Under the pieces are notes generated by a model. The model did no database searches. It was not told the DNA's origin and saw nothing but the letters and a program-made list of their open reading frames with translations. 64,000 nt of DNA from Denitrovibrio sp. (GTDB taxonomy: Bacteria; Chrysiogenota; Deferribacteres; Deferribacterales; Geovibrionaceae). The stretch covers positions 62,001 to 126,000 of the forward strand of contig PKTM01000015.1 in the NCBI GenBank assembly GCA_002869145.1, read 5' to 3'. How positions within the stretch are numbered: position 1 is the stretch's first letter; each line of letters opens with the position of its first letter. Positions 12,957 through 22,484 of the stretch are shown here, piece by piece. A program made the position numbers and the translations under genes.

Positions 12957-13502
12957 CTATTTTACAATTTTTGATATCTCTTTAAACTCTGGTGTGCCGG
13001 CTTTGCCAAGAAGCATAAAAAGCACTGACTCGGCACATGTAACAACAGCGCCTGCTTTCTCCATCATACCGAGAGCTATCTCCCAGTTAAAATCTTACCT
13101 GCTGCAAATAGCATCCGCCGCCACATGAACATTATACCCCTTCTCCAACAGATCAAGCACTGTCTGCAAAACACAAACATGTGCCTCCATTCCTGCAACC
13201 ACAACACTTTTAGCACCTTTCTCTTTAAGTGCCGCCTCGAAAGTCTCCTCGCCGCAGCTTGAAAAGGTAACTTTCTCAATATGCCCATCTATATCCTTTG
13301 CAAGCTCGCCAACTGTGCCGCCAAGACCTTTTGTATACTGCTGTGTGGCTATCACAGGTACACCAAGAACATTTGCACCCTGCACCAGTTTGGAAGTGTT
13401 GGAAAGCATATCCGCATAAATCTCCTGATCCATTGCAACCACAAGCCGCTCCTGAACATCTATAACGACAAGTGCGGTCTCTTCCTTATTTAACTTAAAC
13501 AT
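12957..13502 (-). pseudogene. Isochorismatase-like (YcaC-type) hydrolase with an in-frame stop
   Basis: A cysteine hydrolase-fold protein of the isochorismatase superfamily. The first 135 codons carry VVIDVQ (catalytic Asp), the KVTFSSC region and GMEAHVC (nucleophile Cys). Codon 136 is TAA (13095-13097). The same frame continues with DFNWEIALGMMEKAGAVV and ends at TAG 12957, giving 181 residues in total, the normal family length, and the continuation matches the usual SR-x-x-NWE end of the fold. No frameshift is present. AAGGAG precedes ATG 13502. The substrate is unknown. The truncated product would lack the last helix/strand but keep the catalytic residues. Confidence 0.85.
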
Positions 13503-13530
13503 GTTCTACACTCCTTAATTTTTACTACCG

Positions 13531-13574
13531 TGTGCTCCCAAGATGGCGATAGCTTATATTATCTATAATTTTAA
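13531..13574. repeat. Direct repeat A, copy 1 (44 bases)
   Basis: This 44-base stretch reappears at 13685-13728 with two mismatches. It lies between the isochorismatase-like gene and the HAD gene. The second copy includes the final codons and stop of the HAD gene, so copy 1 looks like a displaced copy of that gene end plus its downstream flank. Confidence 0.85.
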
Positions 13575-13684
13575 ATTATTACTATCGGCTTCTTATTCAT
13601 ACTCCGGCAAAGCCGGAAGCATGCAACGAAGCCTTCGACCCTCCGTCGCCCTGCATACGCAGCTCTGTCGGGCGGGTCGCACCT
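13575..13684. other. Hairpin-rich insert between the direct repeats A
   Basis: A 110-base stretch visibly richer in G+C than its surroundings, between two 44-base direct copies. It holds a TCCGGC-AAA-GCCGGA hairpin (13603-13617), the palindrome CGAAGCCTTCG (13627-13637) and a CGCCC/GGGCG pairing further right. No coding potential is seen. It may be a copy of a dispersed intergenic repeat; that needs a genome-wide search. Confidence 0.5.
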
Positions 13685-13728
13685 TGTGCTCCCATGATGG
13701 CGATAGCTTACATTATCTATAATTTTAA
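13685..13728. repeat. Direct repeat A, copy 2, covering the end of the HAD gene
   Basis: The 44-base partner of 13531-13574 (two mismatches). It spans the HAD stop codon (13717-13719), about 9 bases of coding sequence and 32 bases downstream. Confidence 0.85.
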
Positions 13729-14316
13729 TAATTGCTCTATCTCTTTTATCTTCTCTTCGACATTATCAAAATGGCATACCTGGAGTCCGCTATCTGATGC
13801 CCTTTTTATGTGACCTGCATTGTCATCCACAAAAAGCACCTCTTCCGGCTTTACACCAAAACCGTCACATACTTCGGCAAAAACAGTTATATCCTTCTTC
13901 CCTTTGCCAAGATAATAAGAGTTATAAACCTTTTCAAACAAATGGTAAAAACTGTGCTCTGCATTGAGCTCATCAAGCCAGTTGGTCTGATCGGAAAGGA
14001 TGGCAAGCCTGTATCCGGCATTGCCTATTCGCTCTATCAGCTCAATAACCTTAGGGCGTATTTTGAATCTTTCAAATATTTTTTCACGCATCTGGTGGTA
14101 GCTCATTTTAAATTCGTAGCGCTTTGCCAAAGTTGTCCAGAAGACATTCTCCATGGCTCTGCCGTACATATACCCCGTGTTCCAAAGAACGTCACGAGCA
14201 TCATCAAAAAACAGTTGAGGGTCAAAACCGTGAAAAGAGGCAATATCATTAAGCCCGTTCTCCCACCCCTCTTCTGCTATCACTCCGCCAAAGTCGAAAA
14301 ATACTGCAGTAATCAT
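13717..14316 (-). CDS. HAD-superfamily hydrolase, subfamily IA
   Basis: A 199-residue phosphatase-like protein. Motif I is FFDFGGV (nucleophile Asp, with Gly at the second Asp position as in YihX-like members), motif II is the Ser of LSDQTNW, a Lys-rich GKGKK segment fits motif III, and motif IV is VDDNAGH. The cap would be the alpha-helical segment between residues 15 and 85. The natural substrate is unknown; sugar phosphates are common for relatives. The frame extends to a TTG at 14328, but GGAGG five bases before ATG 14316 favours the latter. The 3' end is duplicated downstream (repeat A). Confidence 0.82.
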   Translation of the reverse strand: MITAVFFDFGGVIAEEGWENGLNDIASFHGFDPQLFFDDARDVLWNTGYMYGRAMENVFWTTLAKRYEFKMSYHQMREKIFERFKIRPKVIELIERIGNAGYRLAILSDQTNWLDELNAEHSFYHLFEKVYNSYYLGKGKKDITVFAEVCDGFGVKPEEVLFVDDNAGHIKRASDSGLQVCHFDNVEEKIKEIEQLLKL

Positions 14317-14372
14317 CCAAGCCTCCAATAGATATAAGATACAATATTAGTCCTGAATGTCAAAGAATGAAG

Positions 14373-22223: not shown

Positions 22224-22280
22224 TTATCCTGAAAATCTGCCCATGAACTGAGCCCGTTTAAGCCTGTTACAAAGTGTTTC
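22224..22280. repeat. Direct repeat B, copy 1 (57 bases)
   Basis: A 57-base copy of 22428-22484 with one mismatch. On the reverse strand it still spells the last 18 codons and the stop of the YihY-cNMP gene, and the single difference is synonymous (CGG for CGA). It lies 147 bases beyond the real gene end, in the gap before ffh. Confidence 0.92.
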
Positions 22281-22427
22281 TGATTATACAGGCAAAAAAC
22301 TTCCATCCTAGAGTTTTTTGCAAGCCGCTCAGCCGAACAAGTACAGGCTTCGCTTACACTACGCTGAAACCTCAGGAACAAGTACCTTCGGTTCGCTCCG
22401 TGAGGCACCTCCTGTGCCTTATGAATA
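22281..22427. other. Structured insert between direct repeats B
   Basis: This 147-base stretch fills most of the gap between ffh and the YihY gene. It has a 10-base stem GCAAAAAACT/AGTTTTTTGC (22292-22321), a compact hairpin AGGCAC-CTCCT-GTGCCT near its right end, and a twice-repeated ten-base word around GAACAAGTAC. No coding signal is convincing: a 103-codon frame across it exists only because the flanking repeat is read twice. The remaining bases 22114-22223 show nothing I can name. Confidence 0.5.
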
Positions 22428-22484
22428 TTATCCTGAAAATCTGCCCATGAACTGAGCTCGTTTAAGCCTGTTACAAAGTGTTTC
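22428..22484. repeat. Direct repeat B, copy 2 = 3' end of the YihY-cNMP gene
   Basis: The original gene end (18 codons plus stop). The spacing to copy 1 is 204 bases, so repeat plus insert form one unit that looks tandemly duplicated or inserted with target duplication. Confidence 0.92.

Follow-up and report, generated by a model that had tools for sequence, protein, structure and literature searches.

In one bacterial family, the Geovibrionaceae, small structured elements recur at gene stop codons and form a type of genetic element that is apparently undescribed; a literature search for these repeats returned no description. The general architecture would be a gene end (D), a small structured element (E), and the gene end again (D), with E a short non-coding hairpin repeat that would typically begin 0-25 nt past the stop codon. 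Two cases are found in the window, the 64-kb stretch of the Denitrovibrio sp. genome (G000) analysed here. The first, at 13.5 kb, lies in an operon on the minus strand and consists of the following features.

13717..14328, minus strand: HAD-family hydrolase gene, 203 aa (ORF list), stop codon 13717-13719, upstream of the insert
13681..13728, minus strand: first repeat copy in gene direction, comprising the last 9 coding nt of the HAD gene and its stop, the 23-nt 3' flank, and the first 13 nt of element A
13583..13693, minus strand: full copy of element A, matching C11:9552-9662 at 93% over exactly that span; ends GAAGCCGATA
13527..13574, minus strand: second repeat copy, comprising the HAD end, the 3' flank and a 13-nt stub of element A
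13527..13539, minus strand: element A stub GGGAGCACACGGT, followed by AGTAAAAATT (compare locus L163)
13095..13502, minus strand: isochorismatase-like hydrolase, the next gene of the operon, with an in-frame stop (SR*DFNWEI) where orthologs read on

The repeat search yields a 48-nt direct repeat (13527-13574 and 13681-13728) with 3 mismatches (45/48) and a spacing of 154. Its inner 44-bp core (13531-13574 and 13685-13728) matches at 42 of 44 positions, which confirms the 44-base repeat of a preliminary description; that description had also placed one copy over the HAD stop codon and the other 154 bases downstream, and both placements are correct, the right-hand copy covering 13717-13719. The segment between the copies, called hairpin-rich in the same description, indeed folds at -49.9 kcal/mol (z = -4.0), with none of 200 shuffles equally good. 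In gene direction, the first unit opens with the end of the HAD gene and its stop; a stretch of 23 nt leads to element A (111 nt, 13693 -> 13583), and eight nt separate this element from the second unit. That unit again has the HAD end with its stop and 23 nt, and then 13 nt of element A, after which come AGTAAAAATT, a ribosome site and the next gene. The hairpin core is absent from the second unit, and the AGTAAAAATT that follows the stub is similar to the right-end sequence of the full unit, AGTAATAAT. The locus reads as a unit of gene end plus element, then a second unit of gene end plus 13-nt stub.

A direct-repeat scan (score at least 20, spacing 40-500 bp) covered 464 kb of the Denitrovibrio sp. 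genome (400 kb of sampled stretches together with the 64-kb window) and 400 kb of a congener. In the former, the only hits are the 13.5-kb pair, a pair at 22 kb, two further loci with elements and a small number of repetitive tracts; the congener sample contains no pairs. Because there are so few such pairs in 864 kb, chance is not an explanation for the 13.5-kb repeat; mis-assembly is unlikely, given the 3 sites that distinguish the two copies. Seven relatives have no insert here, the ATG of the next gene overlapping the HAD stop or lying within about 17 nt of it; in the window 214 bases separate the HAD gene from the isochorismatase-like gene. The latter has an in-frame TAA after residue 135, and its frame runs on to about 12957 with a normal-looking C-terminus; it is probably a nonsense allele.

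Element A is composed of a small 5' hairpin (GCAC-AAG-GTGC), a hairpin with internal loops, and a long 3' hairpin (GGCTTC..GAAGCC). The preliminary description had asked whether the insert recurs in the genome, always at gene 3' ends and always with duplicated flanks. Two further full copies exist, on contigs C11 (93%) and C13 (87%), each located after a stop codon and before the start of the next gene; neither has a flank duplication, so that duplicated flanks do not always accompany the insert. No copy is found in eleven relatives. Element A is thus known from three copies only, and its D holds just 12 coding and stop nt.

The second case belongs to a more numerous group, denoted family B.

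22428..22484, minus strand: gene-end copy 1, the last 18 codons and stop of a gene for a 427-aa membrane/cNMP-binding protein
22281..22427, minus strand: family B element, with an 8-nt spacer, hairpin 1 AGGCACAGGAGGTGCCT, middle stems, an A/T-rich hairpin 2 and the right end TATAATCA
22224..22280, minus strand: gene-end copy 2, followed by the native downstream region

The two gene-end copies agree at 56 of 57 positions, model R1 matches 22346-22423 (70.3 bits, E 1.3e-20), and six relatives lack an element at this site. The inserts at 13.5 kb and 22 kb both start with a small hairpin and finish with a longer one; as first noted, they are unlike, and they are not sequence relatives. The parallel in layout that had been drawn between the two loci is real and recurrent, with duplicated flanks (score at least 15) at 46 of 87 dissected family B elements. 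The loci reached from the 22-kb insert have the hairpin alone in common, and each has its own long flank duplication. The grouping of A with B rests on this layout, from which we infer that the two cases share a process.

In family B, 0-25 nt of spacer separate the stop codon of the gene from hairpin 1, which has 7 bp and a three-base loop. Next come a stem that is closed by CAC/GTG and contains a 3x3 internal loop, more stems, and an A/T-rich hairpin with about 11 pairs or more. The right end, near TTATCAG, is partly conserved, and the gene end appears again after it. The inserts are 75-230 nt long, non-coding and structured. An RNA model built on hairpin 1 and the next stem is supported by covariation (both partners change in 6 of the 12 pairs; 0/500 shuffles) and has about 150 matches in 17 of 46 genomes, all in the order: 5-24 per genome in 11 of the 12 family members and weaker ones elsewhere in the order. 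The sole family member without a match is G003, which can serve as a natural control in looking for a gene that the elements require. Rfam 15 gives no gathering match in the 64-kb window and, for ten element loci, two weak unrelated matches at E<1. Viral contigs and plasmids contain no match, and a global search of the sampled DNA for over-represented hairpin loops gave no signal, the elements being too rare.

We note several further observations on repeats in these genomes. Draft contigs of G007 and G011 (L228, L257, L258, L262, L266, L273) end in or just after family B elements, and the arrays at these contig ends are probably longer than assembled. At L357 and L358 a hairpin-1-like palindrome occurs, reversed relative to the usual orientation, just after the stop of a gene ending RDFRYCRDWGY. 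On contig C26 of G000, L138 (18350-18620) harbors tandem copies of a 22-base unit, AGGTTCGCTCAGATTGTCCGTG, and one isolated copy some 180 bases upstream of them, and L140 (10770-11065) consists of a 100-base unit in three copies with CCTCCTTTGTCAAAGGAGG palindromes; similar palindromes are also found after genes in other family members.

The duplications are typically 15-60 bp long, some longer, and in protein-gene cases the duplicated stretch extends to the stop codon or falls a few codons short of it. Both gene-end copies keep a stop codon, often different ones. Measured from the stop of an ORF longer than 80 aa, 36 of the 87 elements start at a distance of -2 to 25 nt. In roughly half of the elements no duplication can be detected; comparison at a lower threshold adds at least one further, old duplication (L247). 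Presence differs between relatives: rsmH has an element in G001 (of the same genus as G000), G007, G009 and G011, and none in G000, G002, G005 and G010. Arrays of two or three units are found at L166, L179, L181, L187 and L251. Partly deleted second units also exist, for example at L163, where a hairpin-1 stub comes after the second gene end, as the 13-nt stub does at 13.5 kb; at most B loci no remnant of a second element is seen past the second gene end.

The two gene ends of a locus (D1 and D2) differ in 48 of 321 codons over 18 loci, with 35 synonymous and 13 non-synonymous differences. Random change would give a synonymous share of 21% (p=1.4e-14), and free decay of the second, downstream copy alone about 34% (p=1e-7), hence neutral decay of the downstream copy after insertion is ruled out by the synonymous bias. 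The differences cluster near the stop, beside the element (34 of 108 codons within five codons of it versus 14 of 213, p=1.2e-8). As the differences are mostly synonymous, both copies functioned as gene ends during most of their divergence, a pattern in the codons that points to two alleles brought together. At L184 it is the upstream and not the downstream copy that agrees with congeners at 4 of the 5 differing sites; the direction of replacement is therefore not fixed, and which copy is the newcomer may vary. Within one genome there is no near-identical pair of elements outside arrays or contig ends, even where the duplications are perfect, although many D1/D2 pairs are near-identical; at the same gene in sister species the elements are 89-100% alike. 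That elements are unlike within a genome and alike at the same gene in sisters argues against recent copy-and-paste within the genome and favours locus-bound lineages that move between strains by homologous recombination.

A further property of family B concerns the spacer before hairpin 1, which is often the reverse complement of the sequence straddling the outer boundary of the duplication, over up to 13 nt. The best cases have 13, 12, 12 and 10 perfect bp; L177, L178, L187 and L236 each have 10-13 perfect bp, and L328 has 9 pairs, G-U included. In permutation tests the observed complementarity was reached in 0 of 20000 runs for 29 loci and in 32 of 20000 for 15 loci not used to form the idea (p=0.0016). 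No signal was found 15-75 nt away, and the right end of the elements is not complementary to either boundary. More than half of the loci have no clear spacer-boundary stem. Such a spacer might act as a guide, or might have arisen by snap-back copying in the course of repair. The 13.5-kb locus shows no such complementarity where family B has it; an A/T-rich match of 8 nt exists at the opposite end but is not convincing.

The explanation we tentatively place first is that small structured repeats spread between alleles by homologous recombination and thereby double gene ends, with A and B sharing the process. Transfer by homologous recombination is what we infer from the patterns above. For family B, E would most likely spread between strains at fixed places in this manner. 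The DNA on both sides of E would be homologous to one single recipient gene end, so that integration would import E and leave the recipient with its own gene end plus that of the donor allele. Recombination between D and D could subsequently excise E exactly or build arrays. Such allelic recombination accounts for the intact genes, for presence and absence between congeners, for copy differences that are mainly synonymous, and for the lack of a near-identical donor inside the genome. Empty sites in relatives are known for the HAD gene, the 22-kb gene and rsmH. Homologous recombination leaves the spacer-boundary complementarity and the first insertion into each gene unexplained.

Local tandem duplication, possible if rather doubtful as a general account, needs no mobility: a hairpin repeat already located after the gene would be doubled together with the gene end by replication slippage or unequal exchange, and the second core would later be deleted. 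The second unit at 13.5 kb, which keeps 13 nt of the left end of the element and a copy of its right margin, fits this course of events, as do the full arrays and partly deleted units at other loci; taken by itself, element A is explained almost as well by duplication and subsequent loss of the second core as by allelic recombination. It does not account for the synonymous bias, for duplications that end at the stop codon, or for the spacer complementarity, and the missing remnant of a second element at most B loci also speaks against it.

Ordinary transposition of a non-autonomous element with unusually long and variable target duplications seems unlikely. Long direct repeats of variable length flank IS1634 and IS1549 (PMC2266710), and repeats of this kind are present around the elements described here, with a partly conserved right end and empty sites in relatives. 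The elements differ from these insertion sequences in that they have neither a transposase gene nor terminal inverted repeats, their left and right ends not being complementary; moreover, no close donor copy exists in the same genome, the duplications stop at stop codons, and the D1/D2 differences are synonymous.

RNA-guided or RNA-templated insertion, in which the spacer would act as guide by pairing with the insertion junction, located in the 3' coding end of the gene, would fit the complementarity at that junction and its confinement to the boundary; we nevertheless consider it quite unlikely. Snap-back synthesis during repair could yield the same inverted copy, and a clear stem is wanting at more than half of the loci. 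Reverse transcriptases (PF00078) are missing in 8 of 12 genomes, including complete element carriers, and insertion driven by this enzyme is rejected, as it is absent from most carriers. Diversity-generating retroelements likewise combine a gene 3' end, a hairpin and a second gene 3' end downstream. The present loci differ from them in the missing reverse transcriptase and in D1/D2 changes that are of all kinds, mostly synonymous and not adenine-specific.

We give a low probability to a homing element that is anchored at stop codons and encodes no protein. A leader of roughly 12 nt of a small structured RNA or ssDNA would pair 20-60 nt upstream of the stop of one particular gene and direct a break there, and the gene would survive because a copy of its end travels with the element, making the element a natural counterpart of home-and-rescue gene drives. 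Very improbable, finally, is a cis-acting 3'-UTR RNA (e.g. a CsrA-type GGA hairpin) under selection with incidental duplications: the structure is conserved and hairpin 1 can have a GGA-type loop in the context ACAGGATGT, but the loop varies (TGA, CGA, GAA) and congeners differ in element presence at the same gene. A CsrA sponge formed by the ACAGGATGT hairpin is ruled out, as the loop is not conserved.

Integron attC sites also lie after stop codons and have a conserved structure. Among described arrangements, the closest is found in fungal mitochondria, where mobile endonuclease genes displace C-terminal coding ends (Allomyces atp6; Glomus atp6, atp9, cox2 and nad3), which is explained by horizontal transfer (PMC3630166). 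There, too, a gene end is followed by an insert and a downstream second C-terminal copy, and the ends differ mainly synonymously (PMC3630166); in family B the second gene end likewise lies downstream of the insert, and both ends were once functional. The fungal inserts encode a homing endonuclease, whereas the bacterial chromosomal inserts of 75-230 nt carry no gene and hence no endonuclease. REP/BIME repeats, associated with RAYTs, are short palindromes after genes, often by stop codons, with GTAG/CGTC repeats (PMC3733652); they resemble the present elements in size, in their place after genes near stop codons, and in occasional arrays with flanking DNA (PMC3733652). In contrast to REPs, the elements have a covarying multi-stem structure and 15-60-bp gene-end duplications, and no GTAG/CGTC tag was found beside oriented elements, whose conserved starts are AAGGCACAGG (B) and GGGAGCAC (A). 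Y1 transposases (PF01797) occur in 4 of 12 genomes and are absent from G005, G006, G007, G010 and G011, which harbor 5-19 elements each; mobilisation by RAYTs is rejected, the enzyme being missing from most carriers. The only Y1-type transposase match of G000 (G000:C10:66960-67256) is located about 2 kb from a family B element (G000:C10:69127-69189), beside a tRNA-Sec gene. The phenomenon is a member of neither C-terminal displacement nor REP, and is kept apart from both.

For annotation, it matters that the duplications, which can be mistaken for errors or slippage, are systematic and that contig breaks tend to fall on them. The complementarity between leader and junction makes a guided mechanism directly testable. 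If the reading of allelic spread is true, small elements in the Geovibrionaceae would use conserved gene ends as homes without damage, among them rsmH, ilvD, guaB, lon and others (genes named by eye), and each transfer would leave a readable record in the form of two gene ends of different ancestry.
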